Source of the DNA: a bacterium
GTDB lineage: Bacteria; UBP6; UBA1177
DNA length: 53,780 bases
Direction: 5' to 3'
Assembly: GCA_017538365.1 (NCBI GenBank)
Contig: JAFYIZ010000048.1
Coordinates: forward strand, 1 to 53,780
The notes beneath the pieces are model-generated. The model worked only from the letters and a program-made list of their open reading frames with translations. It made no database searches and was not told the DNA's origin. Below, one piece after another: positions 17,401-47,140 of this stretch; within the stretch, counting starts at the first letter, position 1; the number at the start of each line of letters is the position of its first letter. Position numbers and translations under genes: made by a program.

Positions 17401-17458
17401 AAGAAAACCCTGCACGCCTCTTAACAATGCGCACCTAGCGGGGTTCTCTCTCTTTTTT
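17401..17458 (+). ncRNA. Candidate small RNA 1 upstream of the broken Abi HEPN gene
   Basis: About 58 nt, bounded by a sigma70-like promoter and a U-tract. AGAAAACCCT (17402-17411) pairs with GGGGTTCTCT (17440-17449) with one mismatch and one G-U pair, and six Ts follow (17453-17458). The 28-nt loop contains GC-rich segments. It ends 26 nt before the ATG of the Abi pseudogene. Related AbiF proteins are known to be linked to an upstream noncoding RNA that acts as antitoxin, so this RNA may be the surviving antitoxin. Transcription is inferred, not shown. Confidence 0.5.
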
Positions 17459-18052: not shown

Positions 18053-18202
18053 CGCAAGTAACTTGTGTGCTTGCTTTGCGTTGATCCGAAGTTCTGGGCT
18101 GGCATCCAGTTCTTCGGGGAGCTCTAGAGGGTTCGGCATTCAGCCACAAGCCAGCAACTAAAATGTCATTAAAATGCTTGCTTCTCGCAAGCATTTTTTT
18201 TT
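18053..18202 (+). ncRNA. Candidate structured RNA 2 upstream of the PBECR4-type RNase (type III-like antitoxin)
   Basis: About 150 nt from a strong promoter to an intrinsic terminator, with no open reading frame of note. A 32-nt hairpin at 18086-18117 has arms CCGAAG-TT-CTGG and CCAG-TT-CTTCGG, so a UU/UU internal loop splits the stem. A second hairpin pairs GCAAG (18054-18058) with CTTGC (18070-18074). AATGCCG (18048-18054) could pair with CGGCATT (18134-18140) if transcription starts a few bases earlier than predicted. I do not recognise 6S, SRP, tmRNA or a riboswitch. I infer an RNA antitoxin for the adjacent toxin-like gene. Confidence 0.6.
18171..18202 (+). terminator. Intrinsic terminator between candidate RNA 2 and the RNase gene
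   Basis: A perfect 11-bp stem, AAAATGCTTGC / GCAAGCATTTT, with loop TTCTC and a run of nine Ts ending at 18202. The SD GGAG of the RNase gene starts at the very next base, so the gene is expressed only by read-through or from an unseen promoter. Confidence 0.88.
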
Positions 18203-23373: not shown

Positions 23374-23391
23374 GTAAAAATGAGGCAAAGA

Positions 23392-24066
23392 ATGAATAAA
23401 GATTTTTACGAAAATCTGGAAACAATCTTCACATCGGCACGGCTTTCGGTGTATCGGCAGGACGGAACCGATGAATCCACGGCATTGGCACGGTATCTTT
23501 TCAACATTGAGCTTTGCCGCTCGCTTTATGTGACTTTGAACATTTTTGAGGTTTCGTTGAGGAATACTTTTGACAAGGCTCTTTCTTCTTTTGCCGGTGA
23601 AAATTGGTATGAAACTCTTCCGTTGGATGATCACAGCAGAAAGAAAGTTTCCGAGGCCAAAGGCAAATTGGAGAAAAAGAAAAAAAATCCTACTCACGAC
23701 CGCGTTATTCCTGAATTGTCGCTCGGATTCTGGACTTCGCTGATTACAGCAAAATACTCAGAACAGGCTTTTCAAAGTTATCTTATAAAAACCTGTTTGA
23801 AAAAGTGTCCGGTGCAGTTGCGAAGTATTAAGAATCTGCAAAAAATATTTGAGAGAATCCGCATTCTTCGCAACAGGGTTTCCCATTACGAGCGGATCCT
23901 TCATTGGAAGGACTTGGAATCGCAGCATGCGCAGTTGGCCGAATGCATAAAATGGCTGGATGAATCGGCTTTTCAGCTTCTCGGTGAAATTGATTTTTTT
24001 GATTATATTTTCAGTGCCGGAGTAAATCCCTTTCTTGTACTTGTTTCAAAGAAATGGAATTGGTGA
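23392..24066 (+). CDS. Abi-like HEPN-domain protein, candidate RNase of an abortive-infection or toxin system
   Basis: 224 residues from the ATG at 23392, which has GAGG six bases upstream; an ATG at 23380 is also possible but has no SD. ALARYLFNIELCRSLY then LNIFEVSLRNTFDKAL, GFWTSLITAKYSE, and a C-terminal RILRNRVSHYERIL are the pattern of Abi-family (AbiD/AbiF-related) HEPN proteins. R160 and H165 give the R-x4-H RNase motif. HEPN proteins of this kind cut RNA and cause dormancy on phage attack. No antitoxin-like ORF is adjacent, but a divergent small RNA candidate lies just upstream. Its immediate neighbours are core metabolic genes, which suggests a recent insertion. Confidence 0.8.
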   Translation: MNKDFYENLETIFTSARLSVYRQDGTDESTALARYLFNIELCRSLYVTLNIFEVSLRNTFDKALSSFAGENWYETLPLDDHSRKKVSEAKGKLEKKKKNPTHDRVIPELSLGFWTSLITAKYSEQAFQSYLIKTCLKKCPVQLRSIKNLQKIFERIRILRNRVSHYERILHWKDLESQHAQLAECIKWLDESAFQLLGEIDFFDYIFSAGVNPFLVLVSKKWNW

Positions 24067-28274: not shown

Positions 28275-29201
28275 TCAACGGTATTGTGCGCATGAATTGT
28301 CAAGGCAGACACCATATCCGCCGCAGTCCTTATCTTCTATACATTCGTAGAAGTCTTCTGGAGACTCGCAGATCCCTTCATCGCACAATTTACCTTCGCT
28401 GCAGTCGCTGTCTTCCATGCATTCCGGCGGATTAGCGATAACATTGTCCCATGCGAAATCGGAAACGGCAAAGCACTCTCCGTTTTCAACATAGGTCGAA
28501 GTCTCATTATTTTCTTCATCGAGTGTAACTTCGTAAAGCGAGAAAGCGCCTTTTCCTTTTGAGTAGTTTGTTCCTGCGATGACATCTTCGATTTTTAGTC
28601 CTCCCGATTTTGCAAAATAGTATTTTGTCATCACATAATCGCCTTCCTCATCATAAATATTTTTGTAGAGGGTGACTTGTTCGGTTGCTGTCGCATAATT
28701 TGCATTCGCATCCTTGCCGAGAACGATCATTTTTCCTTTTAACGGCGAGAGATCGGTTCTGTAAACAAGCCCATTGTATTCAGGATCATATTCATAAAAT
28801 ATTATATCGAGCCAGAATAAAGCGTTTCCAGGATGTTCAGGGTCTTCTACATAAGCATATATGCCGTCATCAAGAGTTGATGCAATCTCATCGAAAACGA
28901 TTGGCTGGCATGCCGGATCAACCGGTTCGAAGTCGGTATCATCCGTTGTGTCTGTGTCTTCCATTGTGTCAGAATCGTCTTCAGTGTCGGGTTTGTCGCC
29001 GCCAGAAACATCTGAATCGGAAGAATCGTTATCCGGTGTTTCGGAATCGGAAACATCAGAATCCTGAGCGCCGGTGTCTGCAACATCGGAATCGTCTTCT
29101 TGTTCAGTATCGCCGTGATAGATTGTTTTACCTTCATCACCGCATGAAATGATGAATATCAAGGCAAAAACAGCAAGCGTACAAGTGATAAACTTTTTCA
29201 T
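28275..29201 (-). CDS. Lipoprotein of the YFQ-domain array, member 1
   Basis: 308 residues from the ATG at 29201 (GGAGGC in front). The signal peptide ends in the lipobox IISC. A linker of about 65 residues rich in Asp, Ser and Thr follows. Then comes one YFQ domain in a diverged form: DANANYAT, KYYFAKSGGLKIEDV and the closing NGECFAVSDFAW. The C-terminus carries two short cysteine modules, CMEDSDCSEGKLCDEGIC and CIEDKDCGGYGVCLDNSC, of a different type from the CGxDGCGG modules in other members. It is the last gene of the minus-strand array and has its own array-type promoter at 29240. Confidence 0.82.
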   Translation of the reverse strand: MKKFITCTLAVFALIFIISCGDEGKTIYHGDTEQEDDSDVADTGAQDSDVSDSETPDNDSSDSDVSGGDKPDTEDDSDTMEDTDTTDDTDFEPVDPACQPIVFDEIASTLDDGIYAYVEDPEHPGNALFWLDIIFYEYDPEYNGLVYRTDLSPLKGKMIVLGKDANANYATATEQVTLYKNIYDEEGDYVMTKYYFAKSGGLKIEDVIAGTNYSKGKGAFSLYEVTLDEENNETSTYVENGECFAVSDFAWDNVIANPPECMEDSDCSEGKLCDEGICESPEDFYECIEDKDCGGYGVCLDNSCAQYR

Positions 29202-29239
29202 AAAAACAGCCTCCAAAGTTAAAAAAAATAAAGCAAGAA

Positions 29240-29268
29240 ATTATAGTTAAAAGGTGTTTTTAAGAAAG
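29240..29268 (-). promoter_or_regulatory. Array-type promoter of lipoprotein member 1
   Basis: CTTTCT (29263-29268, minus strand) and TATAAT (29240-29245) with exactly 17 bp between. The wider left block AAACTTTCTTAA recurs upstream of other members. Confidence 0.65.
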
Positions 29269-29286
29269 TTTTTTGCTGTGCTGCCG

Positions 29287-30435
29287 TTATTTTCCGTTCG
29301 CATCGATGGATGCATTCTTGATTTGGTAGCATTGACCGTTCGGAACCGGCTCACCGGTAATTTTGTCAATTTCAACAAATATCGGTGCTTTACCTACTAT
29401 TGCGGCCTGCTTGAATGAACCGTCGCTGTTTAATTGCGATATATGGATTACGCCTCTCTGAGGGAAGTAAAGTTTCGATAAGATGTTGCCGTTATATTCC
29501 TTTATGAAAGCGCAGACGCCGTCAGCGTTTGTAGGCTTGTCGAGAGTGCATGTGTCAAAAGTCTGTCTTGAAAAATCAATGTAGGTTATTGAGTTGTAGA
29601 GTGTCAGTGAAAAATGGTTTTTGCTGTCGCTTCCGTTTGGCGAGTATTCAGCAGTGTAATCGAAGAATGAATTTTCATTACCTGATAAATATGTTTGAGT
29701 GAGAGTGCCGAGGGTGATTCCGTTGCACTTTACGCACTGTGTCTGGTCTGCGCTGCACATTTCATCGGCATTACACTCTATTGTGCATGGGTGACCGCAG
29801 CCGTCGTTGCCGCATTTTTTGCCTTCGCATGAGCATACTTCGCATTGACCTTCTGATGTGCATCTTTGTCCCTCAGGGCACTTGCCGTCACCTGTCCCGC
29901 AAAGTCCGCCGCAGCTGTCGCTTCCACAAATTTTGCCTGCACAAGAACAAGTGGAACATCCCTGCTGGTCGAGGTTGCATCTGCCGTAAGGACCGCAATC
30001 GCCGCAAGTTCCGCCGCAACCGTCAGAACCACAGAATTTGTCCTCGCAGTTCAACTCGCAGTTAGGATCTGCATTAGGATCAGGGTTCGGAGTAGGATCG
30101 GGAACCGGTGTTGTTGTCGGATCTGTCGGGTCAGTAGTCGGATCGGTTGTCGGATCTGTGGGATTTGTAGGTTCGGTTGGATTAGTCGGTTCTGAGGTCG
30201 GTTCTGTTGTTGGATTAGTTGTGGGCTCGGTAGCCGTGTCATTAGTCGGATCTGTGGGATTTTCCGAGCTTGTATCGGTTGCCGAATCGGTATCTCCTTC
30301 GTTTCCGTTGTCTGCCGATGTGTCTGAAGATGAATCGGTATCGCCTGAAATTTCTTCTTCGTCATCATCGCTGACGCATGAAACGAAAGTGAATATTGCG
30401 AAAATCAGAGATAAAATAATAAAGATTTTTTTCAT
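29287..30435 (-). CDS. Lipoprotein of the YFQ-domain array, member 2
   Basis: 382 residues from the ATG at 30435 (CAGGAG in front). The signal peptide ends in the lipobox FVSC. The linker starts Asp/Ser-rich, then becomes a Pro/Thr/Asp repeat (PTDPT, PTEPT, PTNPT units) of about 60 residues. Three consecutive cysteine modules follow, of the type CGSDGCGGTCGDC. One diverged YFQ domain ends the protein (KLYFPQRGVIHISQL and NGQCYQIKN). It starts only 34 bp after member 3 stops and I see no promoter there, so the two are probably one transcript. Confidence 0.82.
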   Translation of the reverse strand: MKKIFIILSLIFAIFTFVSCVSDDDEEEISGDTDSSSDTSADNGNEGDTDSATDTSSENPTDPTNDTATEPTTNPTTEPTSEPTNPTEPTNPTDPTTDPTTDPTDPTTTPVPDPTPNPDPNADPNCELNCEDKFCGSDGCGGTCGDCGPYGRCNLDQQGCSTCSCAGKICGSDSCGGLCGTGDGKCPEGQRCTSEGQCEVCSCEGKKCGNDGCGHPCTIECNADEMCSADQTQCVKCNGITLGTLTQTYLSGNENSFFDYTAEYSPNGSDSKNHFSLTLYNSITYIDFSRQTFDTCTLDKPTNADGVCAFIKEYNGNILSKLYFPQRGVIHISQLNSDGSFKQAAIVGKAPIFVEIDKITGEPVPNGQCYQIKNASIDANGK

Positions 30436-30469
30436 GAAAATCTCCTGAAAAAATAAAAAATTTAAGGAG

Positions 30470-31606
30470 TTAATATGCGAAATAATCAAGTGACTGGTTC
30501 AAAATCTCGATGCAACTGCCTCCAGGGATTTCATACGTTGAAGTGTTGTAGGAAACAAAACCTGTTTCGACAAGTCTTACGTTGCTTATAGGAGCCGAAA
30601 TACCGGCATTAGAGGTGTTGAGCGAGTTGATATCGATAGTTCCGTTCTGCTGAAAATAGAGTGTGCCGGAATTCTGGATGTAAAGGCAGATAGCTCCGTT
30701 TTCTTTGCTGCAGTCGCTGTATTTGAAATCGGAAAGATCTACAGGATTAGAGAGATTTGCAGGGTGTTTTATCAAAAGTTTAAGGTCGTTATTCGTATTG
30801 TCGTCTGAATCTTTGTAGTTTCCGTTATAAGTGAAATTGGAACCGCTCTTGTAGCCGCTTAATCTTGTAACCGTTATTTTTTTGCATTCGTACGGAACGC
30901 AATCGGTCTGTTCTTTGTTGCAGGCTTCGTTTGCGGCACAACCGGAACCGCATATTCCGTCGCAACCATCGTATCCGCAGACTTTGTTTTCACCGTCAAC
31001 TGTTTTGCAGCTTGGAACGCAGGCAGGTTCAGTAGGCTCAGTATCGTTGTCGGGTTCGTTACCGTCATTCGGTTCAGAGTCGTCATCAGGTTCATTATCG
31101 TCTCCAGATTCCGTATCATTGTCCGGTTCGTTACCGTCGGTCGGTTCAGAGTCGCCATCAGGTTCATTATCGTCTCCGGATTCCGTATCGTTGTCGGGTT
31201 CGTTACCGTCATTCGGTTCAGAGTCGTCATCGGATTCATTATCATCACCGGATTCCGTATCATTGTCGGGTTCATTACCGTCAGTCGGCTCTGTAGGTTC
31301 GGTCGGCTCCGTTGTCGGATCAATCGGTTCATCAGTCGGCTCAGTCGTAGGCTCTTCAGTTGAGTCAGCGGGCTCAGCAGGGTCGGTTGATTCGGACGGA
31401 TCTTCCGTAGCTGTGTCAGTCGAATCGGTGTTCGCGGTGTCTGTCGGTTCTTCTGTGCCTGAGTCTGTTGTGTCAGAAGCGTCGATGTCGCTTGTTGAAT
31501 CAGTGTTGTCAGGATACTCGCCATACAACTCTTCTTCCGTCAATTTTGAGCAGGAAGCAAGTGTCGCAAATAAGAGCGCTACGAACAGAATCGTAAAGTT
31601 TTTCAT
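30470..31606 (-). CDS. Lipoprotein of the YFQ-domain array, member 3, with 24-residue acidic repeats
   Basis: 378 residues. The signal peptide ends in the lipobox LASC. The linker of about 170 residues begins with Ser/Thr/Asp/Glu and Pro, then has three 24-residue repeats (GNEPDNDTESGDDNEP core) encoded by 72-bp DNA repeats, plus a partial fourth. One cysteine module follows (KVCGYDGCDGICGSGC). A short YFQ domain closes it (TLYFQQNGTIDINSL, GGSCIEILN). The promoter is unclear: the gene starts 43 bp after member 4 stops, with only a TAAAAT overlapping that stop. Confidence 0.82.
   Translation of the reverse strand: MKNFTILFVALLFATLASCSKLTEEELYGEYPDNTDSTSDIDASDTTDSGTEEPTDTANTDSTDTATEDPSESTDPAEPADSTEEPTTEPTDEPIDPTTEPTEPTEPTDGNEPDNDTESGDDNESDDDSEPNDGNEPDNDTESGDDNEPDGDSEPTDGNEPDNDTESGDDNEPDDDSEPNDGNEPDNDTEPTEPACVPSCKTVDGENKVCGYDGCDGICGSGCAANEACNKEQTDCVPYECKKITVTRLSGYKSGSNFTYNGNYKDSDDNTNNDLKLLIKHPANLSNPVDLSDFKYSDCSKENGAICLYIQNSGTLYFQQNGTIDINSLNTSNAGISAPISNVRLVETGFVSYNTSTYEIPGGSCIEILNQSLDYFAY
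31053..31283. repeat. 72-bp tandem repeat inside lipoprotein member 3
   Basis: Units start at 31053, 31125, 31197 and (partial) 31269, marked by GGTTCGTTACCGTC-like sequence. The 72-bp length keeps the frame. The units differ by only a few bases, so copy-number change by slippage or recombination is likely. Confidence 0.85.
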
Positions 31607-31649
31607 TCTTTTCTCCTAACAAGATAAAAAACGTGGTTAGAAGTAGATT

Positions 31650-32756
31650 TTAGTACCAGCCGTCACCAAACAAATCTGCAATGGCTTCCAGCAATTCAAG
31701 TACCCAGCCGTTGCTGTCCGATTCGAATTCAAGTGTCGTATTCTTGACTTTAAGGCATGCACCGCCTGTAGCAGGTGTCGAGTGGTTGTTTTCGTCGATA
31801 TTAACTTCTTCAAGGATTACGCCTGTAAGTTTTGCGGAGATCGTTTCCGTCTTCCACCATCCGTCGTCTTCGTCGTTGTAATCTGTTGTTACAGTTCCAT
31901 CTTTCTGGAAGTATTTTTTGAAACCGCCGTCTTCCTCAACATAAAGGAAAAATCCGCTCGGATCACCGAAATTTTTATTTTCCAGGTAAAATGTTCCTTT
32001 ATAAGTGTCAAGGTTGGAAAACTTGATAAAGAAAGTGTCTTTAGCATCCGTACCTGTGTTGGGTGTATAGCTCGTTTTGAATCTGGCGGATTGAGGCGAA
32101 TAGCTAGTGTTAGTATCCAGTTCCAAACTGGTGTTCAGATTGATTTCTGTAACCGTAGCACATTCAGTCGGAATGCACTTGTATTCATAGTTGCAGAATT
32201 TACCTTCTTCGCATGCATCGCATTTTCCGCCGCAACCATCGTCGTTACCGCACACTTTGCCTTCGCAGTTCGGAATGCAGCTCTCAGTGTCACCAGTATC
32301 AGCACCAGTATCTGCTCCGGTGTTGGCTGTGTCTGCGCCAGTGTCGGCTGTGTCTGCACTGGTATCAGCTGTGTCTGCGCCGGTGTTGGCTGTGTCTGCG
32401 CCGGTGTCAGTGGTGTCTGCACTGGTGTCAGTGGTATCTGCACCGGTGTCAGTTGTGTCTGCGCCGGTGTCAGTGGTATCTGCACCGGTGTCAGTCGTAT
32501 TAGGATCTTCAGAATCTGTCGAGTCAGCCGTATCGGTCGGCTCAGTGTTTGCGGTGTCAGCCGGATCGGTCGAGTCAGCCGTGTCAGTCTTGTCGGCATC
32601 AGTGTCGGATGAAGAAGTTGAATCGTCTGTATCGCTTTGTGACGATGTGTCTGCGTCATCATCGTAGCCGCCATACACCATAGCTTCCTCGGTTCCAGAA
32701 CACGAAATAAGTGCCGTTAATGCAAGGACTGTTAATAAAATCGTAAAGTTTTTCAT
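31650..32756 (-). CDS. Lipoprotein of the YFQ-domain array, member 4, with 7-residue repeats
   Basis: 368 residues. The signal peptide ends in the lipobox LISC, and its first residues (MKNFTILL) match member 3. The linker of about 130 residues ends in some ten copies of a seven-residue unit (GADTTDT and GADTANT variants). One cysteine module follows (KVCGNDDGCGGKCDAC). The YFQ domain is of the second subtype (GTFYLENKNFGD, KYFQKDGTV, GGACLKVKNT), and the protein ends soon after in a hydrophobic/charged tail. The promoter at 32795 is of the array type. Confidence 0.82.
   Translation of the reverse strand: MKNFTILLTVLALTALISCSGTEEAMVYGGYDDDADTSSQSDTDDSTSSSDTDADKTDTADSTDPADTANTEPTDTADSTDSEDPNTTDTGADTTDTGADTTDTGADTTDTSADTTDTGADTANTGADTADTSADTADTGADTANTGADTGADTGDTESCIPNCEGKVCGNDDGCGGKCDACEEGKFCNYEYKCIPTECATVTEINLNTSLELDTNTSYSPQSARFKTSYTPNTGTDAKDTFFIKFSNLDTYKGTFYLENKNFGDPSGFFLYVEEDGGFKKYFQKDGTVTTDYNDEDDGWWKTETISAKLTGVILEEVNIDENNHSTPATGGACLKVKNTTLEFESDSNGWVLELLEAIADLFGDGWY
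32290..32500. repeat. 21-bp tandem repeat inside lipoprotein member 4
   Basis: About ten units of GTGTCTGCGCCGGTGTCAGT-like sequence, each encoding seven residues on the minus strand. The units alternate between a few closely similar versions. The period keeps the reading frame. Confidence 0.8.
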
Positions 32757-32794
32757 AAAAGAACTCCAAGAAGTTAATAAACAAAAGATGGACT

Positions 32795-32823
32795 ATTATA
32801 GTTAAATATCGTTTAAAGCAAAG
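32795..32823 (-). promoter_or_regulatory. Array-type promoter of lipoprotein member 4
   Basis: CTTTGC (32818-32823), 17 bp, TATAAT (32795-32800), read on the minus strand. The leader contains TTTTGTTTATTAAC shortly before the SD, a block shared with members 6 and 7. Confidence 0.65.
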
Positions 32824-32837
32824 TTTTTTTAAAAAAA

Positions 32838-33731
32838 TCAATGTTTTTTTGAAATCAGAGATTCCTGTTTGAAGGAAACGCAACCGGTTTCGCATACTTT
32901 TCCGCATGCGTTCTTTTGACCGCATATCACATCTTCACAACCGAGTTCGCATACGGTTTTGGCTTCGAAAGATGTTTCGATCTCGATGCAGTCGCCGTTT
33001 TCTACAGGAGATGAGACAAGGTTTTCTATTGTGGATTCGACGAGAACCGCGGAAAGTGTTCCTTTGAAATTATACTCTTCGTCAACCGATTCGATGGTCA
33101 AAGTTCCGCTTTTTTGGAAATAAAATTTTTCCGAATCGGTTTTGTGATCCTGAGTGACGGAAACACATTCCCAGCATCTCCAATTGTTTGAATTGTGCCC
33201 GTTATAACCGTAGGCTAGATCGTAAGTTCCGGCTGCGACATAAGGATCGCCTTCAAAACGGTTATGGTCGAGACGCAGTTCGAAAATATCTTCGTGATTC
33301 GGGTCTCCCAAAATATTGTCTGCAATTTTTATGTGGTATGTTGTTGACGGGATGTCACCTGAAAGTTCATCGTTAGGATCGAGTGAAAAACCTGTGCAGT
33401 TCATCGGCTCGTCCGTGTCGTCGTCCGTTGCTGCGTCGTTATCTGTTGCCGCATTATCTTCATCGGTAGGAATGTCTTCATCCGGAGCAGGGGTAATGTC
33501 ATCGTCAAAGACTGTTTCCGTATCGGTGATCTCATCATCGCCGGACTCGGTATCTTCCACTGGTGCGTTTTGGTCATCGTTGACTTTTGAACTGTCATGA
33601 TCCGTTGTTGACGTGTTGTCTTCATCGTTGATCTGGTCGGAGTATTCGTCGTAAACGCTCTTTTTTTCTCCGCACGAAACAAAAATGAGAACAAAAACGA
33701 AAAAAAACACGAATTTTGGTAAAATTTTCAT
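32838..33731 (-). CDS. Lipoprotein of the YFQ-domain array, member 5, probably C-terminally truncated
   Basis: 297 residues. The signal peptide ends in the lipobox FVSC. The Asp-rich linker is about 85 residues. One YFQ domain of the first subtype follows (AGTYDLAYGYNGHN, KFYFQKSGTLTIESV, NGDCIEIETSF). The cysteine module that follows starts normally (CELGCEDVICGQKNACGKVC) but breaks off into VSFKQESLISKKH and a stop. Other members continue from this point into another domain, so a deletion or frameshift may have removed the C-terminal half. The ATG at 33731 has GGAGG in front. Confidence 0.8.
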   Translation of the reverse strand: MKILPKFVFFFVFVLIFVSCGEKKSVYDEYSDQINDEDNTSTTDHDSSKVNDDQNAPVEDTESGDDEITDTETVFDDDITPAPDEDIPTDEDNAATDNDAATDDDTDEPMNCTGFSLDPNDELSGDIPSTTYHIKIADNILGDPNHEDIFELRLDHNRFEGDPYVAAGTYDLAYGYNGHNSNNWRCWECVSVTQDHKTDSEKFYFQKSGTLTIESVDEEYNFKGTLSAVLVESTIENLVSSPVENGDCIEIETSFEAKTVCELGCEDVICGQKNACGKVCETGCVSFKQESLISKKH

Positions 33732-33762
33732 AAAAACCTCCGAACAGAGACAAAAACAGTGA

Positions 33763-33791
33763 ATTTTAGCGGCTTTATCTTTTAAGAAAAG
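33763..33791 (-). promoter_or_regulatory. Array-type promoter of lipoprotein member 5
   Basis: CTTTTC (33786-33791), 17 bp, TAAAAT (33763-33768) on the minus strand. The left flank AAAACTTTTCTTAA fits the shared block with one extra T. Confidence 0.6.
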
Positions 33792-33876
33792 TTTTTAGCT
33801 AGGACTTATTAGGCAATAATGGAATTTAGAGAGATCTTGTAGCCTGATACGTCTCTTTTTAATATGCAGGGATTAT

Positions 33877-35439
33877 TTAGTAGGAAAGAGTAGTGTCCGT
33901 GACTTTAAGGCATGCGCCGTAGGGAATCCTTGTCGATTTGTTTGTGCTGCCGTTGATGGTGACTGCCTCCAGCATTACGCCTGTAAGCTGAACTTTTTTG
34001 GTGGAAGCGTTGTAATTGATTGTTCCCTTTTTCTGGAAGTAGTATTTTGCACCGGAATCTTCGTATATAACAAAGAAAATACCGGTTGAATCGCTGTAAT
34101 TCGTTCCTGCGAGAGAATAATTTTCCACGCTGCTGAAATTGCGGAGCTGCATTGTGAAATAGTCCTTTGCGGAAGAATCACCAAAGATATCTCCCCAACT
34201 TCCTGTGCGTGGAGTGTAGCTCGTTTCATATCTGTTTCTGCCTGAGTTGTAGGTCAATTTCTTGTCCGTGTCGAGAGTGATTTCAAGGCAGTCCAGCGTA
34301 CTTTTGAATGTTCCGCCCGATTGGATTTCAATGCAGTCGCCGTTTTCAATAGGAATTATCGTGTAATCTTCCGCTTCTCCGTCTTCGTATGCTTCAACGA
34401 GTGTTGCCGAGATTGTTCCTTCGATGTTGCCTTCCTTGTAGGTGCTGTCGTCGTTTGCGGTAATTGTCAAAGTTCCTTCTTTCTGGAAGAACTCTTTGCA
34501 TACGGGGTAGAAGCCGTCTTCGTATTCACAGTCCTGCGAAAATCTGACGCATTCGGTGCAGGTGCTGTATTGTTTGTTTTCCTCAGTATCCAAATGGTAT
34601 TCCCCGATATTTACTTTGCCGTTGTCATTGTGAGAAAATGCCATCATTAAAGTATCGTCCGGTTTTCCTGTTACATCGGCATAGTAAGCGCCTCTGTAGG
34701 CATCATAGACAAAAGTATTCCAGTCGATCGAAATTCCGACGCAGTCCGACTCAGGAGTTTCCGGATTGTCAGCATCGTTGTCATTTCCGGAATCAGCCGG
34801 ATCGCTGTCGTTATCGGAATCGGCGGAATCGTTGTCTGAATCGTTTCCGCTGTCGGTGCTGTCCGCATCATTTCCGGAATCAGCCGGATCGCCGTCGCTG
34901 CCGGAATCGGCAGAATCGTTGTCGGAGTCGTTTCCGCTGTCGGTGCTGTCCGCATCATTTCCGGAATCAGCCGGATCGCCGTCGTTATCGGAATCGGAGG
35001 AATCATTGTCGGAGTCGCTCTCATCATTATCAGAGATATCGGAATCCGAGATTTCGGCATCATCGGAATCGCCGGTATCTGTGTTAGTATCGCCGGTATC
35101 TGTGTTAGTATCGCCGGTATCTGTGTTAGTATCGCCGGTATCTGTGTTAGTATCGCCGGTATCTGTGTTTGTATCGCCGGTGTCTGCAGTTGAATCACCG
35201 CTCTCTGTGTTTGAATCGGCAGTGTCGGCATTGGTGTCACCTGTGTCTGCGTTTGAATCAGAAGTGTCTGCGTTCGTATCGCCGCCCTGATCGGTGTCGG
35301 TTTTGTCAGATGTGTCGGAAGAATCAGCGGTGTTGTCTTGATCCGGAACCTCGATCAGATCGTCAAGACTTTTGCCGCTGCATGCTGTAAGCATTAATGC
35401 GGCGATGACCGCAAAAGTGATCGTCAGAAACTTTTTCAT
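33877..35439 (-). CDS. Lipoprotein of the YFQ-domain array, member 6, with two kinds of linker repeat
   Basis: 520 residues from the ATG at 35439. The signal peptide ends in the lipobox LTAC. The linker of about 220 residues has a seven-residue repeat (NTDTGDT) and then a 29-residue Asp/Ser/Asn repeat. A first-subtype YFQ domain follows (EYHLDTEENKQYSTC, FFQKEGTLTI, NGDCIEI). It runs directly, without a cysteine module, into a second-subtype domain (SLAGTNYSDSTG, KYYFQKKGTINYN, GACLKVTDTTLSY) at the C-terminus. The promoter at 35481 abuts the stop codon of the next gene upstream. Confidence 0.83.
   Translation of the reverse strand: MKKFLTITFAVIAALMLTACSGKSLDDLIEVPDQDNTADSSDTSDKTDTDQGGDTNADTSDSNADTGDTNADTADSNTESGDSTADTGDTNTDTGDTNTDTGDTNTDTGDTNTDTGDTNTDTGDSDDAEISDSDISDNDESDSDNDSSDSDNDGDPADSGNDADSTDSGNDSDNDSADSGSDGDPADSGNDADSTDSGNDSDNDSADSDNDSDPADSGNDNDADNPETPESDCVGISIDWNTFVYDAYRGAYYADVTGKPDDTLMMAFSHNDNGKVNIGEYHLDTEENKQYSTCTECVRFSQDCEYEDGFYPVCKEFFQKEGTLTITANDDSTYKEGNIEGTISATLVEAYEDGEAEDYTIIPIENGDCIEIQSGGTFKSTLDCLEITLDTDKKLTYNSGRNRYETSYTPRTGSWGDIFGDSSAKDYFTMQLRNFSSVENYSLAGTNYSDSTGIFFVIYEDSGAKYYFQKKGTINYNASTKKVQLTGVMLEAVTINGSTNKSTRIPYGACLKVTDTTLSY
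34789..35009. repeat. 87-bp tandem repeat inside lipoprotein member 6
   Basis: Units start at 34789, 34876 and (partial) 34963, each opening GGAATCAGCCGGATCGC. Each full unit encodes 29 residues. The copies differ at only a handful of positions. Confidence 0.85.
35069..35173. repeat. 21-bp tandem repeat inside lipoprotein member 6
   Basis: Five consecutive 21-bp units from 35069. The first four are identical and the fifth differs at one base. Each encodes seven residues of the Asn-Thr-Asp-Thr-Gly-Asp-Thr repeat. Perfect identity points to recent expansion. Confidence 0.9.
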
Positions 35440-35480
35440 AAAAAACTCCCGAAAAACGTTAATAAACAAAAAATCGCAGT

Positions 35481-35509
35481 ATTTTAGTGAAAAATACGGT
35501 TAAATCAAG
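35481..35509 (-). promoter_or_regulatory. Array-type promoter of lipoprotein member 6
   Basis: CTTGAT (35504-35509), 17 bp, TAAAAT (35481-35486) on the minus strand. The -35 differs from the CTTTCT form. The -35 ends 1 bp from the stop codon of member 7. The leader shares TTTTGTTTATTAACG with members 4 and 7. Confidence 0.6.
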
Positions 35510-35510
35510 G

Positions 35511-37019
35511 CTAAATCATCAGAACTGAGCATCCGTCGGAGCCTTTTGAATCAGTTGAACTGTCATCAGCGGTGTCGCCTGAAGCGGGTTCTGATGAATT
35601 GTCGCTGTCTGTGTTGTCGCTTGAACCTGAGTTGTTTGAACCGCTGTCGGAAGAGTCGTTTGAGCCGGAATTATCCGTATCGGTATCGTCGAGATTGTCG
35701 AAGTAGCACCAGCAGCCGTCGGTACAACGGGTACCAAACTCACAGTCGCTGTCGCTATGACATTCCCAGAGTCCTTCATAACACTCTGAACACTTGCCGT
35801 CTCTTTCGCAGTAATATCCAGGATCGCAGTCAGTATGTTTTTTGCATTCTTTCTGACTTTCGGAACCCGAATCTGTATCTGTGTCATCCGGATCTTCGAT
35901 ATAGCACCAGCAGCCGTCGCAGGCATAACCAGGATCGCAGTCGGCGTTAGTGTCGCATTCCTTCTGTCCCATACATTCGTCAGCGGGATCGGTCGGATCG
36001 TGCGAATTTGCCACGTCAAATGCAGAAGTTTCGATTTCAAGGCACTTGCTTCCAGTGAAGAAGGTGGTGGAGTTGTCTTCCGCGATGTCGGCTTCGACAA
36101 GTTTTACGGAGATCGTTCCTTTGATCATGTTCTTATCCGCAACGGAGTCCACGATCAGAGTTCCGCCGTGCTGAAAATACATTTTCGTGTAGTCTCCGAA
36201 TTCCGGGTCATAGGCGGCATAAAGTTTTACAGCTTCGCTGCAGGTGTCGTAATTCAGGTTTTTGTCGCTTCCGAGGTCGTAAGTCCCCGCTTTGATCTTT
36301 GACTCGTTCTCACCGAGGAAAAATACCATGTAAACATAGGGTCTGCCGTCTTTGCTGCTTGTTTCGAATGAATTGGAGAAGTGTTTCTTCAGTGTGCCGA
36401 AATCGATCGATATTCCTGTGCAGTCCGAGAGATCGAGATCCTCACACTTCGACTGGTCGTGAGAGCATCCCTGGTTTTTGCCGCACTGCCCGCACACGCT
36501 GCTGCAGCCGTCGGAGCCGCAAACTTTGCCCGTGCAATCCGGAATGCAGATGGTGTCCCATGTCAGATCGTCGACATCGTAGCATTTCCCGCCGTCTACC
36601 GGCTGATAGTAGTCATCGACTTCGACAAGTCTGAACGAAGCGTTGCCCTGAGACTCCTTGGTTCCTTCCTTGACCTTGGTGATGTTGAAAGTTCCGTTTG
36701 TCTGGGAGTAGAGCTTTTCCGCGGCAAAAGTGTTTATGTCCATATCCTCGTAAAGAGTTATGCATGTGTCGCAGCTTTCGTAGTCTGTGAGAGGGTAGGA
36801 GCCGACTTCAAGTTTGTCGAGAGCGTTGCCGCTGCCGTCCCAGAAGTCGATCCAGAGCAGGTCGGGTTTCGTAGTATCGCCTGCTGCATTGTTGGTTTCA
36901 TAAGCAAGGTAAGAGCCGTATTCGAGATAAACTTCATCAAAAGAGAGCTTCTGGCAGTTGTCGCCGAATAAAGCTAACGTAAATACTGCAGCAAACGTGA
37001 TCGTCAGAAACTTTTTCAT
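35511..37019 (-). CDS. Exported YFQ-domain protein, array member 7, without lipobox but with a C-terminal GCSVL tail
   Basis: 502 residues. The N-terminus MKKFLTITFAAVFTLALFG is almost the same as in member 6 but has no lipobox cysteine; type I cleavage is likely. The order is reversed relative to its neighbours. A YFQ domain starts at once (NCQKLSFDEVYLEYG), then a cysteine module (KVCGSDGCSSVCGQCG), a second YFQ domain (AGTYDLGSDKNLNYDTC, MYFQHGGTLIV) and three further cysteine-rich segments (CDPGYACDGCWC and similar). The Asp/Ser-rich linker comes last, ending in DGCSVLMI. The tail resembles that of the large proteins at 40471 and 47141, so anchoring may be through the C-terminus. Confidence 0.83.
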   Translation of the reverse strand: MKKFLTITFAAVFTLALFGDNCQKLSFDEVYLEYGSYLAYETNNAAGDTTKPDLLWIDFWDGSGNALDKLEVGSYPLTDYESCDTCITLYEDMDINTFAAEKLYSQTNGTFNITKVKEGTKESQGNASFRLVEVDDYYQPVDGGKCYDVDDLTWDTICIPDCTGKVCGSDGCSSVCGQCGKNQGCSHDQSKCEDLDLSDCTGISIDFGTLKKHFSNSFETSSKDGRPYVYMVFFLGENESKIKAGTYDLGSDKNLNYDTCSEAVKLYAAYDPEFGDYTKMYFQHGGTLIVDSVADKNMIKGTISVKLVEADIAEDNSTTFFTGSKCLEIETSAFDVANSHDPTDPADECMGQKECDTNADCDPGYACDGCWCYIEDPDDTDTDSGSESQKECKKHTDCDPGYYCERDGKCSECYEGLWECHSDSDCEFGTRCTDGCWCYFDNLDDTDTDNSGSNDSSDSGSNNSGSSDNTDSDNSSEPASGDTADDSSTDSKGSDGCSVLMI

Positions 37020-37058
37020 AAAAAACTCCCAAAAACGTTGATAAACAAAAAGCGCAAT

Positions 37059-37087
37059 ATTTTAGTGAAAAAGTGAATTAAAGAAAG
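37059..37087 (-). promoter_or_regulatory. Array-type promoter of member 7
   Basis: CTTTCT (37082-37087), 17 bp, TAAAAT (37059-37064) on the minus strand, in the context AAAACTTTCTTTAA, followed by the shared leader block TTTTTGTTTATCAACG before the SD. Confidence 0.65.
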
Positions 37088-37131
37088 TTTTATTTATGGA
37101 TTTTAAAGGGGATTAGAGGATGTTTAACTTA

Positions 37132-38811
37132 TTAGTCATCTTCAGCAGGAGCTGTGTAGGTGAAAGTCGTGTCTTTTATGTCGTAGCATTTTCCGCCTGC
37201 AACAGGAACAGTCGACCATGTGGATGTGTCGATTACAACCTCTTCAACACTGACTCCGGTAAGTTGAGCTGTAATGCCGGATGTCTCTTCATCATAATCC
37301 GAGAGTACGACAGTTCCCTTCCACTGGAAGTAGCTTTTTGCTCTATTGTCTTCTCTGATGAAAATGAAAACGCCTTCATCATCGGAATAGTTCGTTCCTG
37401 CAAGGTCAAAAGTACCGACTACATCGTATGTGAAGGGCTGCAATTGGAAGAAGTCTGCAATTTCAGTGTCGCCTGTGTTCGGGGTGTAGGACATTGAATA
37501 AATTCCATAATAATCATCAAACTCTATGTTGCTGGTATCAAGAGTTATTTCCTCGCATTCTCTTGTAACACACTGATGGTTTTCGCCGCAGGCCAGTTCA
37601 CCGCAGCCGTCGCCGCAGGTTCCGCCGCAGCCGTCATCTCCGCATGCCCAGCCTTCTTCGCACTGTGGAACGCAGACGGTGTCCCATGTGAAATTCTCAA
37701 TGTTGTAGCATTTTCCGCCAGCAACGGGTTCAAGAGTTTCCGCGTCAACTTCGACAACTCTGAAGGAAGCGTGACCTTTCGATTCGAAAGAAGAACTGTA
37801 AACTTCGGTGAATTCGAGTTCTCCGCTCTCCTGGAAGTAAAGTTTTGTTGCAGAAAGGTATCCATCTTCATCTTCAACCAAATCCTCAAGGAGGAACATT
37901 GCATAATAAGCGTCATCATAACTGAGACTGAGATCGAAAGTTCCTTCAGCAGGGTAATAATAAGTGAATTCAAGTTCGAGCATGTCTGCGAGCGATGTGT
38001 CTCCGGCAGCATTGTCAATAACCGGTGCATAATAACTGTATCCCGAAATAAATGCTTCGCCGATTTCAAGTGTATCGCATTCCCATGCTACACACTGATG
38101 GTCTTCGTTGCAAGCCTGACCGTCGCAGCCTCCGTTGCATTCTCCGCCGCAGCCGTCATTTCCGCATTCCCATCCTTCTTCGCACTGCGGAACGCATTCT
38201 TCTTCACGACTATCGAATGCGGCGGTTTCGATTTCAATGCATGATCCGCCCGCAACCGGAGTGGAAGTGTAATCATCCTCGTCAATGGTAACTTCGATAA
38301 GTTTTGCAGCGATCGTTCCTTTGATGTTGTTTGAATCATCAACAGCATCAACAGTTATAGTTCCGCTCTTCTGGTAATAGGTTTTTGCATAACCTTCTTC
38401 TTCATCATAGTCTGCATAAACAAGGACACATTCGGTGCAGGTTTTGTAGTTTGCGTTGTCGCCTGCCGCGAGGTCATAAGTTCCTGCAGTGATGGCACCT
38501 GTATCCATATCCTGAAAGAAAGATATCAATACGACAGGATCGTAATCATCATTGGTTGCGACAAACTGGTTGATGTATTCATACTGAGATAATGTCTCCC
38601 AGTCAACCGAAATACCTGTGCAGTTGTCAGCCGGACCTTCAGTCGGTTCGGTCGGATCGGTCGGGTTTGTCGGGTCAGTCGGGTTGGTCGGTTCGGTCGG
38701 ATTTGTCGGATCGGTAGGATCTTTGTCTTTTTTACCGCTGCTGTTTCCTCCGCATGCGACGAAAGCCATCATCACAAGCGTCAAAAGTGTGATAGTGAGA
38801 AATTTTTTCAT
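37132..38811 (-). CDS. Lipoprotein of the YFQ-domain array, member 8, with three YFQ domains
   Basis: 559 residues from the ATG at 38811 (GGAGGC in front). The signal peptide ends in the lipobox FVAC. The linker is only about 45 residues of PTDPTNPTEPT type. The order is: YFQ domain (AGTYDLAAGDNANYKTC, TYYQKSGTITV), cysteine module (WECGNDGCGGECNGGC), YFQ domain (GTFDLSLSYDD, KLYFQESGELEF), cysteine module (WACGDDGCGGTCGDGC), and a YFQ domain of the second subtype (GTFDLAGTNYSDDEG, KSYFQWKGTVVL). It is the clearest example that the domain is a repeating unit. The promoter at 38847 is array-type. Confidence 0.84.
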   Translation of the reverse strand: MKKFLTITLLTLVMMAFVACGGNSSGKKDKDPTDPTNPTEPTNPTDPTNPTDPTEPTEGPADNCTGISVDWETLSQYEYINQFVATNDDYDPVVLISFFQDMDTGAITAGTYDLAAGDNANYKTCTECVLVYADYDEEEGYAKTYYQKSGTITVDAVDDSNNIKGTIAAKLIEVTIDEDDYTSTPVAGGSCIEIETAAFDSREEECVPQCEEGWECGNDGCGGECNGGCDGQACNEDHQCVAWECDTLEIGEAFISGYSYYAPVIDNAAGDTSLADMLELEFTYYYPAEGTFDLSLSYDDAYYAMFLLEDLVEDEDGYLSATKLYFQESGELEFTEVYSSSFESKGHASFRVVEVDAETLEPVAGGKCYNIENFTWDTVCVPQCEEGWACGDDGCGGTCGDGCGELACGENHQCVTRECEEITLDTSNIEFDDYYGIYSMSYTPNTGDTEIADFFQLQPFTYDVVGTFDLAGTNYSDDEGVFIFIREDNRAKSYFQWKGTVVLSDYDEETSGITAQLTGVSVEEVVIDTSTWSTVPVAGGKCYDIKDTTFTYTAPAEDD

Positions 38812-38846
38812 AAAAGCCTCCAAGTTGTAAATAAACAAAACGAAAA

Positions 38847-38875
38847 ATTATAGTAAAAAATTTATCTAAAGAAAG
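38847..38875 (-). promoter_or_regulatory. Array-type promoter of lipoprotein member 8
   Basis: CTTTCT (38870-38875), 17 bp, TATAAT (38847-38852) on the minus strand, within AAACTTTCTTTA. The leader has TTTTGTTTATTTAC. Confidence 0.65.
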
Positions 38876-38902
38876 TTTTTTTAATGCATTCGATGCCGGA
38901 AA

Positions 38903-40192
38903 CTAAGGCTGGATTGTATTCCACTGAAGGTTTTTCACTTCGTAGCAGTTTCCGCCGTAGACTGGAGCAAAATCATCAAATTCATCAACTTCTATAAGTC
39001 TGAAGCTGCCGTGTCCTTTTGATTCAAAAGTTCCTTCCTTAACCTCTTCAAAAACGAGTTTGCCGCTCTGCTGGAAGTAAAGTTTCTGATACTCATCTTC
39101 TTCATCGACGTCTTCGTAGAACCGGATGCATTCAGTACAGGTTGTGTAGTCGCTGTTAATTTCCGAGCCCAAATCCACAATACCGGAATGGAGTTCGGCA
39201 TAATTCATATCCTCATCGTAGAAATGAAGCATAAGAATGTCCTTGAGATCGGTGCTGCCTGCGCTGTTGTCTGCAGCCAGAGCTTCATAATAGTTTCCGC
39301 CGTCATCAGTCGGCTTTATTTCGACTTGACCTAACGAAAGTGTTTCACACTCAAACGGAAGGCACTGCGTCTGCTCTTCATTGCAGTATTCGTCTTTGCT
39401 GCAGCCGTCTCCGCAGATTCCGCCGCATCCGTTGTCTCCGCAGATTTTGCCGTTGCATTCGGGAACGCAGTTGTCGCTGTCAAAAACCCAGTTTTCGATC
39501 GTGATGCACTCTCCGCCTTCGACTGGAGTTGCCTCTCTCGTGTCCGGATCGACTGTAACTTCAACGAGTTTTGCCGAAAGGGTTCCTTTTATCTGATTGT
39601 TTTTGTCAACTTCGGAGATAACAAGAGTTCCGCTCTCCTGAAAGAAGATTTTAACCTTATCTTTATTGTCGTGATCCTGCCAGACTCTGACGCATTCCGT
39701 GCAGTCGAGATAGCTTTTATTGCTCCCTTCAGCCAGATCGTAGCTTCCAGCGACTGCAGTGCCATCAAGCGTCTGAAAGAGGTCGATGCCGAAGACGTCA
39801 CGTTCTGTTTTGTCGCCTAAAATGTTGTCTTTTATGTCGCCGTAGTAGGTGTTTCTGTAAACACTGCCGAAAGTGCTTTCATCTACTGCGAAAATGTAGC
39901 ATCCTTCAGCATTTTTCTCAGGTTCGCCGCTGTCGGGAACCGTGTCGGTGTCGTCTGTGTCGGGAGCTGTGTCTCCGTTTCCGTCGGGAGTTTCCGTGTC
40001 GCCTGAGTCTGCATCGCCAGTGCCGGTATCAGGGATGTCTTCGTCGGAAATTTCGCCGGAATCGCTGTCACCGGTTATGTCTGAATCGGTATTGTCGTTT
40101 TCATCATTGCCTCCGCATGAAGTAAAGCTGCCGCACGAAACAAAGAAAATGAAAGGGAAAACCAGAACAAGAAAAATCAGGAACTTTTTCAT
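38903..40192 (-). CDS. Lipoprotein of the YFQ-domain array, member 9
   Basis: 429 residues. The signal peptide ends in the lipobox FVSC. The Asp/Gly/Ser/Thr linker is about 70 residues. A first-subtype YFQ domain (AGSYDLAEGSNKSYLDC, KIFFQESGTLVISEV, GGECITIENWVF), one cysteine module (KICGDNGCGGICGDGC) and a second YFQ domain (SGIVDLGSEINSDYTTC, KLYFQQSGKLVFEEV) follow. It is the first gene of the minus-strand array. It has a TATAAT at 40225-40230 but no CTTTCT at the expected -35. Confidence 0.83.
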   Translation of the reverse strand: MKKFLIFLVLVFPFIFFVSCGSFTSCGGNDENDNTDSDITGDSDSGEISDEDIPDTGTGDADSGDTETPDGNGDTAPDTDDTDTVPDSGEPEKNAEGCYIFAVDESTFGSVYRNTYYGDIKDNILGDKTERDVFGIDLFQTLDGTAVAGSYDLAEGSNKSYLDCTECVRVWQDHDNKDKVKIFFQESGTLVISEVDKNNQIKGTLSAKLVEVTVDPDTREATPVEGGECITIENWVFDSDNCVPECNGKICGDNGCGGICGDGCSKDEYCNEEQTQCLPFECETLSLGQVEIKPTDDGGNYYEALAADNSAGSTDLKDILMLHFYDEDMNYAELHSGIVDLGSEINSDYTTCTECIRFYEDVDEEDEYQKLYFQQSGKLVFEEVKEGTFESKGHGSFRLIEVDEFDDFAPVYGGNCYEVKNLQWNTIQP

Positions 40193-40470: not shown

Positions 40471-43400
40471 ATGAAAAACACAAAATTATTAGTGCTTTTT
40501 TTAATCATTTTTGTTTCTTGGACGGTTTTCGCTCAGGAAGAACCGGATTCTGAAACCCCTGATCCTGACAGCGTGACCCAGGAAGATTCAGATCAGGAAG
40601 TTCCGGATCAGGAAGTTGCAGATCAGGATTCTGAAACTACAGATCAGGATACGCCAGGCGATGATGATCCCGGTGTCAGCAACGGCGAAGGTCAGATGAT
40701 CGGCGGAAAACCGGCAATGAGCTGGGAAGACGGCGGTCAGGATTTCTTCGTTATGTTCAATTCGAACCTTGACGACAAAATCAAACTTTCCGATGATGAA
40801 CAAAGCAACCCGCAGGGTGATACTTGCCTTGACTCAAGCTCTTTCACGCTGAACAATTTCCATATTCCGGAAGATGCCATTATCGAAAAGGCTTACCTTG
40901 TCTGGATGGGAGCTGTTGATCCGACCAAACTGAATGATCCGACCGACAACAAGGTTCATCTCGCTTTCAAGCAGACGAAAGATCCGAATGTCGAATATGC
41001 CAATGATATTCTTTCCGGCGAAGAAGGAAAAGGTAAAAAACTCAACACTGCTCCGAGTTTCGATTTCGAGGGAATCAGATTTAAACAGGATGTCACACTC
41101 GGCTGTACAAAAGACCAGATTGAAAACACCGAGATGGAAATCGGATACTTCACATACCGTGTCGATGTTACTGATTTCTTTAATGAAATTTACGAAATCA
41201 ACAAGAATGCAGGACATCAGGAAGGCACGGGTGAATATTACGGAACCTACACATTCAGTGATCTTGACTGCACTGATCACGATGCTTACCTCTGCAAAAC
41301 CACGATGGTAAGCGCATGGTCGCTTTTCTTCATCTACAGATCGAAAAATATCAGACCGAAAAAGATCTATTTCTACAACGGTCTTGCATATGTTTACGGT
41401 AAAGCATCTGATATCGAAGTAAGCGGTTTCGAACTTCCGCTCAATCCGGCTGTCCGTCTTACGACAATGATTGCCGAAGGCGACCCGAGTCTTACCGATC
41501 CGAATGTTGAGACGCTTGAAGGTATTTTCCTCCGCGGTCAGAATGCGACCAGCAACTATAAGCTCAACAACAAATGTAATCCCATAACCAGCACTTATGT
41601 CGAAGTTTACAATTCAAAATCTTCAATTGTAAACTGGGATCCGGATGCTGATAAAGACAATCAGATACAGTGTATCGAAGGCGGACAGGAAGATACCGGA
41701 ACAGGCACAAAATACAATTACGGTATTGACGTCGACACCTTCCGTCTCGACAGCGAAAAAGAGATCAACCTTCAGGAGCATCTCGAGAAAGGAAATACTT
41801 CGATGAATATCAAACTTTCGGTTAACCAGGATGCTATTTTCACGAATTACATGGTTCTTTCGGTTGACATCAAAGGTTCCGATTTCGATATTCCTGACGA
41901 AGATGAAAAGTATTTCTGCGCATGTCCCGCTTCCGATCCGAACGCGAAAGATTACTACTGTCCTTATGTAAACAAAAGCAAAGAGTTCTACTACCTGGTA
42001 AAAGTTCAGAACTGGGGCAAGGACGAAACCAAAGCTGTTACGATTTCCGATGAACTCGATGCACAGCTTGACTACGTTCCGGGAACAACTGAATATGCCA
42101 CCAAGTTCAACGACAAAGGCGACGGAACCAACTGGATGGTAATTCCGGATAAAGACGGCAACAAGTTCCCGCTTTCAGGCAGCGGTTTCAAACTTGCCGA
42201 CAAAATGATGCCGTGTGACAAAAATTCATGCCCTAACAAAATTCTTGTAAGATACAAAGTTCGTCCGAAGGCAGGAATTGCAAAGAACTACGTTTTCTCA
42301 AACATAGCTCTTATCAAAGATGAAAAGAGTGAAACTCCGTACAAAACCAATACTTCGTATCCTCTTAAACTTAAACCGGGAAACTGTGTCGCTGAATGCG
42401 ATTCTCCGACTGCTGAAATGTGCGGCGGTGTAAAAGACGACAAAGAGTGCGGAGATGAAGGCCTGCCGGAGTGCACAACGGGCTATATCTGCGAGAATTT
42501 CAAATGCAAGGATGATCCGAATATGATGTGCAGTGATGCAGAGTTAACGCTTGCTCTCGGCAAAAATACTCCTCAGTCGGAAAATACGATAATCATCCCG
42601 AAAGACAACGGCGGCCAGCCTCTCGTTCTCGGTCAGTTCACGCTCCAGGCAACGGGCTGCGATGAAGAAAAAGTGTTCAATTTCGAAAATATCCGTGTCC
42701 ACTTCAACAAAAGAAACAATTCCAAGATAGAGTTCTCCGATTATGAAATTATTTACGATGTCAACGGAAACGGTGTCTATGACGAGGGTGAGGATAAAAT
42801 TGTAAGCAATCCCGATTCTACGACTGTAAACCCGAATTACATTTACATGGCGCTTAAACCGGATGCAAAGAAGTTTGTCGGCAAATCGCTCAACTACTTC
42901 ATTATCCGCGCGAAAGTAAACTACAAGGATGCTGAGATTCCGACAAATACGGCGTTTAATTTCTACCTTGAAGAAAGTGCTGTCAAAGTAAGCAGCAGCG
43001 GAAAAGCCGAGATTACGACCGGAAACGAAGGTTTCGAGTTCGCGACATTCTATCTTGAGCCGACGGGAAATTTCTTCATCGTTACAAGCGGTTCGCACGA
43101 TCCGGCTGTTCCTGCGATTGCCGATATGAACAGCAATATTCCGGTTATGCAGATCAAAACGAAGTCGTTGGGTATGGCAAATACGATTACTAAATTCAAA
43201 GTCAAAGTTTCGGGCGGCTCTGTAAAATTCGGCGAAAAGAACGGTATCACCGGTATTTCACTCTGGCTTGACACGAACAACGACGGAGCGGGAGATATCA
43301 AAATTGCCGAAAAAACAAGCTTCGCAGCAGGCGAATCATCGGCTATCACGTTCGAGGAATCCGACTTCTCACAACCGTTGACATACAATGCAGACGAAGA

Positions 43401-43725
43401 AAAATATATTGTTGTCAAAGTCGATTTCAATATGATTAAAGCCGATCCTGCAATGTACGGCAAAATCATTGTTCCGAAGGGCGGTATCATGCTTAAAGAA
43501 ACTGCGGCAAGCGTGTATGAACTTCCTCTCAACTCTAAAGTTTTCACATATGCTTGTCCGGAAGGTGACAGCACCTGCGAAACTGAGAAAAAGAAAAACG
43601 GCGGATGTGCGGTTCTCGAAGTCGAGTCCGACAACTCTGCTATAATCGTTCTTGCGGCGGTTCTTTCGGCGGCTGCAATGCTCGGTTTGGCACTTCTCAG
43701 AAAAAAATCTTCTAAAAAGTTCTAA
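40471..43725 (+). CDS. Large surface protein with DUF11-like domain and C-terminal sorting-like tail
   Basis: 1084 residues. The type I signal peptide MKNTKLLVLFLIIFVSWTVFAQ is followed by an Asp/Glu/Gln/Pro-rich linker of about 60 residues. A long extracellular part follows. It includes a region near 510-600 that resembles a DUF11 repeat (VQNWGKDETKAVTISDEL), then a cysteine-rich stretch and beta-rich repeats. The C-terminus has GGCAVLEV, a transmembrane helix (AIIVLAAVLSAAAMLGLALL) and RKKSSKKF. That is the arrangement of MYXO-CTERM-type signals, in which a conserved Cys precedes a helix and a basic end. ATG at 40471 follows GGAGG. The ligand or role is unknown. Confidence 0.82.
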   Translation: MKNTKLLVLFLIIFVSWTVFAQEEPDSETPDPDSVTQEDSDQEVPDQEVADQDSETTDQDTPGDDDPGVSNGEGQMIGGKPAMSWEDGGQDFFVMFNSNLDDKIKLSDDEQSNPQGDTCLDSSSFTLNNFHIPEDAIIEKAYLVWMGAVDPTKLNDPTDNKVHLAFKQTKDPNVEYANDILSGEEGKGKKLNTAPSFDFEGIRFKQDVTLGCTKDQIENTEMEIGYFTYRVDVTDFFNEIYEINKNAGHQEGTGEYYGTYTFSDLDCTDHDAYLCKTTMVSAWSLFFIYRSKNIRPKKIYFYNGLAYVYGKASDIEVSGFELPLNPAVRLTTMIAEGDPSLTDPNVETLEGIFLRGQNATSNYKLNNKCNPITSTYVEVYNSKSSIVNWDPDADKDNQIQCIEGGQEDTGTGTKYNYGIDVDTFRLDSEKEINLQEHLEKGNTSMNIKLSVNQDAIFTNYMVLSVDIKGSDFDIPDEDEKYFCACPASDPNAKDYYCPYVNKSKEFYYLVKVQNWGKDETKAVTISDELDAQLDYVPGTTEYATKFNDKGDGTNWMVIPDKDGNKFPLSGSGFKLADKMMPCDKNSCPNKILVRYKVRPKAGIAKNYVFSNIALIKDEKSETPYKTNTSYPLKLKPGNCVAECDSPTAEMCGGVKDDKECGDEGLPECTTGYICENFKCKDDPNMMCSDAELTLALGKNTPQSENTIIIPKDNGGQPLVLGQFTLQATGCDEEKVFNFENIRVHFNKRNNSKIEFSDYEIIYDVNGNGVYDEGEDKIVSNPDSTTVNPNYIYMALKPDAKKFVGKSLNYFIIRAKVNYKDAEIPTNTAFNFYLEESAVKVSSSGKAEITTGNEGFEFATFYLEPTGNFFIVTSGSHDPAVPAIADMNSNIPVMQIKTKSLGMANTITKFKVKVSGGSVKFGEKNGITGISLWLDTNNDGAGDIKIAEKTSFAAGESSAITFEESDFSQPLTYNADEEKYIVVKVDFNMIKADPAMYGKIIVPKGGIMLKETAASVYELPLNSKVFTYACPEGDSTCETEKKKNGGCAVLEVESDNSAIIVLAAVLSAAAMLGLALLRKKSSKKF

Positions 43726-47105: not shown

Positions 47106-47140
47106 ATGTTTAGAATATGGCTTTTTACATGGAGGCAGTG

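Follow-up and report, generated by a model that had tools for sequence, protein, structure and literature searches.

A domain of about 140 residues that matches no named family underlies an array of nine minus-strand genes for exported proteins in a 2.32 Mb, 97.6% complete UBP6 genome, and at slightly better than even confidence these proteins are read as modular binding proteins held at the cell surface, with adhesion or recognition as their probable role. The domain family is real, unnamed and structurally confident; it is common to UBP6 and another phylum, which is probably Myxococcota, and is ready for cataloguing. Every testable UBP6 member carries exactly one anchor signal, and the occurrence of the same domain with an anchor at either end of the protein, never at both, constitutes a natural experiment that points to a second anchoring signal.

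The array occupies positions 28275-40192 of the window (the whole stretch of 53,780 nucleotides that was analysed), in which all nine open reading frames claimed by the earlier note were found in the ORF list. Members are numbered m1 to m9 in transcription order; m2 and m4 are members 8 and 6 of the earlier note. Four predicted starts were shifted downstream to an MKK codon (m2 38811, m4 35439, m8 30435, m9 29201). From m1 to m9 the proteins hold 2, 3, 2, 2, 1, 1, 1, 1 and 1 copies of the domain, 14 in total, in keeping with the one to three per protein first described.

All nine genes are transcribed from the minus strand, and m1, m2 and m4 to m9 encode predicted lipoproteins. In m1 (38903-40192; ORF and domain matches), which has the lipobox FFVSC, an acidic linker is followed by an A domain (39479-39904), a Cys module and a B domain (38915-39355), both placed by profile matches. 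The three domains of m2 (37132-38811; ORF and domain matches), located by profile matches, are of types A (38212-38625), B (37678-38085) and C (37159-37560) and are linked via two CGxDGCGGxCG modules. The m3 protein (35511-37019) has a signal peptide without a lipobox, N-terminal B (36552-36959) and A (36015-36425) domains identified by profile matches, a C-terminal acidic linker and a terminal GC tail, GCSVLMI-stop (35511-35534, minus strand), which is a putative C-terminal anchor signal with no TM helix. In m4 (33877-35439) a long repetitive acidic linker precedes A (34318-34746) and C (33883-34293) domains, again from profile matches, with no Cys module between them. The remaining members have a single domain each: m5 (32838-33731) an A domain (32973-33401); m6 (31650-32756) a repetitive linker, a Cys module and a C domain (31728-32132); m7 (30470-31606) a repetitive linker, a Cys module and a divergent domain (30482-30892); m8 (29287-30435) a linker, three Cys modules and a divergent domain (29302-29730); and m9 (28275-29201) a divergent domain (28443-28910) followed by C-terminal Myxo_Cys_RPT-like repeats (TIGR04201), which reach the cut-off of 25 bits in an NCBIfam search. 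CGxDGCG modules also lie beside the domain in a second-phylum relative (L072), but the Cys modules are spacers, distinct from the domain in question.

The 14 array copies are 138-160 residues long with pairwise identities of 12-49%. Their alignment bears out the description of a shared domain that opens near a Cys and closes with GGxC: the opening Cys, the Gly of 'YFQ..G' and the closing Cys of GGxC are invariant in 14/14 copies. Conserved columns consist of Cys, Gly, Leu and one Glu, near-invariant in the 'LvEV' strand, with no catalytic-looking set. A profile of the 14 copies recovers the array copies at E values of 1e-34 to 1e-51, as it must by construction, and also, not by construction, five further copies elsewhere in the genome (E 5e-14 to 7e-32), which bring the genome total to 19. 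Two subtypes had been described side by side in m4 and m2; these are as described, and three subtypes are now resolved: A (m1a, m2a, m3b, m4a and m5), B (m1b, m2b and m3a) and C (m2c, m4b and m6), with m7, m8 and m9 outside them. The internal Cys pair, 'TCTEC', is present in A (a single Cys in m3b), mostly kept in B and absent from C. The domains had also been said to occur in different orders, which holds for m3 (B-A), but the usual order is A, then B, then C.

AlphaFold2 modelled a single domain from an 83-row alignment with pLDDT 95.0 and pTM 0.88 as an all-beta structure that includes one short helix, and modelled the three-domain part of m2 as three similar beta domains joined by low-confidence linkers. 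A disulphide probably joins the opening and closing Cys, which adjoin the first and last strands in the model. The domain had been called unrecognised, and it stays so: no Pfam or NCBIfam model matched at or above its cut-off, sequence profiles found no convincing relative in the PDB, and Foldseek found no match to the model at E<=0.001 in PDB or BFVD. Neither the HMM nor the structure searches gave a confident hit to a characterised family, the nearest being the sub-threshold DUF6252 (PF19765). DUF6252 has the same segment order, with a 'GTYDL' turn and then 'GTLTI..D....I.GT' strands, but its match reaches the middle of the domain only, and its function is uncharacterised. Of 83 copies, five give sub-threshold, in-register matches to the Pfam model (best E 0.0043), and the family consensus scores 19.6 bits (E 0.0011) against a cut-off of 27.2 bits; the PF19765 model has no match in the UBP6 genome itself, and DUF6252 members were absent from the other genomes that were searched. 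Distant kinship of the two sequence families, not membership, is possible.

Export of all nine proteins had been claimed, and a signal peptide is indeed present in 9/9; in 8/9 it ends in a lipobox ([LVI][ASTVI][GAS]C), from which lipidation is predicted, m3 being the exception. A survey of UBP6 proteins with the domain, 88 after removal of redundancy, gave 69 with a lipobox and no tail, 13 with a tail and no lipobox, two with neither, and four with no recognisable signal. The two with neither carry lipoboxes missed by the pattern (CAACD, FVSCL), giving about 71 against 13 and none with both, counts in which this pair was reassigned by eye after the result and which are not independent, as the proteins are related. 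The tail, of about seven residues, follows the pattern [GS]GC[SA]xxx[ILF]-COOH; in every case only 4-5 residues follow the Cys, and there is no TM helix. Most tail proteins have a C-terminal acidic linker and a domain whose distance from the start Met is 21-25 residues; in lipobox proteins the linker is N-terminal.

The tail is shared with other exported proteins. Because not all Ser codons are included in the pattern, its counts are low estimates: this genome has 21 matches and its reversed control 2, and there are 13-32 in genus relatives against 1-5 in controls, with genomes of other phyla mostly near their controls. In this genome (loci L094-L114), 17 of the 21 matches are true ends of secreted-looking proteins, and tail carriers include subtilisin-like proteases, phosphoesterase-like proteins and amidases. 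One such carrier lies in the window: an exported golvesin-domain/amidase protein (47117-50353, plus strand) with the tail GGCSVLTL-stop at 50330-50353. An exported protein of 1084 residues, p1084 (40471-43725, plus strand, divergent from the array), ends instead in GGCAVLEV, then a hydrophobic helix, then RKKSSKKF; in layout this is a complete MYXO-CTERM-like end, here in a phylum other than Myxococcota. The MYXO-CTERM models have no match in p1084, m3 or the golvesin-domain/amidase protein.

According to the mBio 2025 report on MYXO-CTERM and myxosortase (PMC11980579), the myxobacterial signal is C-terminal in surface hydrolases and adhesins exported by Sec, its invariant Cys follows a flexible linker, and its cleavage by myxosortase in M. 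xanthus is shown experimentally, lipidation still being predicted. UBP6 resembles that system in possessing a CPBP gene akin to myxosortase and GspD of type II secretion, as well as the Cys-TM-basic end of p1084. The MYXO-CTERM signal is tripartite, with a TM helix and a basic cluster, whereas the short tail has the Cys only. The short C-terminal Cys tag looks new, and further myxosortase signals described in 2024 may include short tails. The only PF02517 protein of the genome, a CPBP protease (L115:1174-1815 on contig C35, plus strand), has the motifs EExxxR (EEFFFR) and HxxxN (HVVSN), but unlike the myxosortases it falls below every curated cut-off (MrtP 83.6 vs 250 bits, Mrt_core 77.8 vs 100, MrtJ 62.1 vs 75); a relative in UBP6 family f4 scores 103.7 bits on Mrt_core. 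UBP6 genomes have one CPBP-family gene each, for which the top NCBIfam model is in nearly every case a myxosortase, and Mrt_core matches in 27 of 28 genomes, the exception being 65% complete. It is proposed tentatively, at somewhat under even confidence, that the UBP6 tag [GS]GC[SA]xxx[ILF]-COOH is an alternative to the lipobox, a CAAX-box-like anchor whose Cys would be lipidated and whose tail would be removed by the myxosortase-like CPBP enzyme. We infer that the protease would act on the short tail, and the two form a concrete substrate-enzyme pair to test.

The array has a fixed locus. In sampled genus relatives it adjoins p1084, which borders it in nearly all of them, and two aldehyde dehydrogenases, several having Lcl or FeoB on the far side. 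When array content was compared between these genomes, as the earlier note had proposed, gene number and sequence were found to vary at the fixed position: array genes range from one (encoding a four-domain protein) to about 12, minimum counts because some contigs or stretches end near the array. Identities to genus relatives are 92-98% for the aldehyde dehydrogenases, 51-95% for p1084 and roughly 27-90% for array members, which are among the fastest-changing proteins at the locus; individual domains are 37-98% identical. Positional orthologues are recognisable for m1, m2, m3, m4, m5, m6 and m9. The array had been suggested to be a variable cell-surface repertoire, and a surface repertoire predicted from these sequences to vary between species is supported. 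Variation within a strain is not: phase variation through simple repeats was considered, and all tandem repeats detected lie in frame within the linkers. In the closest pair of genomes dN/dS is 0.15-0.39, below 1, and positive selection is thus undemonstrated.

Synonymous divergence (pS) in the same pair is 0.57-0.73 for m1 and m2 against 0.17-0.21 for p1084 and m5. Allele replacement or recombination at m1 and m2 is not proven by this difference, as pS also varies among other flanking genes (0.40-0.57 for FeoB, RNase HII, p50354 and the golvesin-domain/amidase gene). In all pairs, pS of the aldehyde dehydrogenases is near 0.2, a steady low value that is probably due to codon bias. On these grounds, sequence evidence for recombination between species at the array is suggestive only. 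One relative's protein (L061:9080-10693) has two A-type domains side by side that hardly differ, which looks like a recent internal duplication.

Upstream sequences suggest separate expression of most members. A promoter-like element, CTTTCTTT..ACTATAAT, precedes m2 (38847-38875, minus strand), and pattern matches place similar elements on the same strand before m3 (37059-37087), m5 (33763-33791) and m6 (32795-32823). The pattern CTTTCTTT..ACTAWAAT, written after these same upstream regions were viewed, matches the window four times where 0.06 matches are expected. Inspection by eye shows related sequence upstream of m1, m4 and m9; m7 and m8 may be co-transcribed with m6, given their close spacing behind it.

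The domain was found in 26 of 28 UBP6 genomes, with 5-31 copies per genome within the genus and 0-6 outside it, the relatives' genomes in the species scan having been sought with A-type copies. Relatives include bacteria from the gut of red deer, reindeer, yak and goat, and the organism is accordingly taken to be ruminant-associated. Only one of the other-phylum genomes sampled as relatives (G055) had a match. In a sample of its phylum, 31 of 146 genomes matched, about a fifth, mostly genomes of 5-13 Mb; this second phylum is probably Myxococcota, judging from the large genomes and from matches to MYXO-CTERM and myxobacterial Cys repeats. In second-phylum proteins the domain occurs one to three times, in some of them together with LTD (lamin-tail), DUF4215 or redoxin-like parts; the relatives sit in exported proteins, some of which carry MYXO-CTERM or DUF4215/myxobacterial Cys repeats. 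In one family of that phylum single copies are conserved, suggesting a basic role and not only a variable one. A search for plasmid carriage of one relative's domain gave no match.

For the favoured reading as binding proteins, each array protein would be exported by Sec and held by one tether, an N-terminal lipidated Cys in eight members or the C-terminal GC[SA]xxx[ILF] tail in m3. The long acidic Pro/Thr/Asp linker and the Cys-rich modules would serve as stalk and spacers for a head of one to three disulphide-closed all-beta domains that might bind glycans, adjacent cells or the surfaces of host or feed. Between species the set would diversify as sequences change and members are gained and lost, probably with recombination as well. 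Surface exposure is predicted from the anchor signals and the relatives, and tail lipidation and binding are likewise predicted. A partial parallel is TraA of myxobacteria, a polymorphic recognition protein with Cys-rich repeats that is held at the surface by a C-terminal Cys tag (PMC6372800, PMC11980579); its layout, a variable head on a Cys-rich stalk, is comparable. However, the variable part of TraA has no homology to the domain, TraA is one gene and not an array, and the sole match to the TraA model is weak (E 0.012) and falls on the Cys repeats of m9. Counted against binding are the lack of adhesin homology and of a fold relative, and the dN/dS values. The role may also not be universal, since one other-phylum relative is fused to a redoxin-like domain.

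That same fusion, the Cys-rich modules and the fact that lipoproteins are not necessarily surface-exposed would suit domains that act in the periplasm or envelope as accessories in the assembly, folding or redox handling of other exported proteins. The long acidic stalks, the multiplication and the rapid divergence are more in line with exposed proteins, as is a GC tail common to secreted subtilisin-like proteases, phosphoesterase-like proteins and amidases, and we regard this alternative as distinctly unlikely. Somewhat less doubtful, if still unlikely, is a passive coat or spacer layer, or a set of decoys varying under phage or protist attack, with no specific ligand. Such a layer would account for linkers of variable length with in-frame tandem repeats, for fast divergence and a changing copy number at one fixed locus, and for retention of the divergent, degenerate copies m7-m9, but a mere spacer needs neither a domain core kept across phyla nor the recurring A-B-C order. 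The domains could instead be enzymes of an unrecognised family, for example glycan-active ones, to which the near-invariant Glu and the ruminant-gut habitat of the closest relatives might point; no other polar residues are conserved, the conserved set is structural, and no enzyme family or fold matches, making this quite improbable.

Two structured RNAs were noted elsewhere in the window. An abiF RNA (Rfam; 17408-17444) lies just upstream of an ORF (17592-17909) whose similarity to Abi_2 is confined to the C-terminal end and which is perhaps an Abi_2 remnant, a longer Abi_2 protein being encoded at 23380-24066. A drum RNA (Rfam RF02958, 49.5 bits; 18076-18182) directly precedes a PBECR4 nuclease-like gene (18212-18790).
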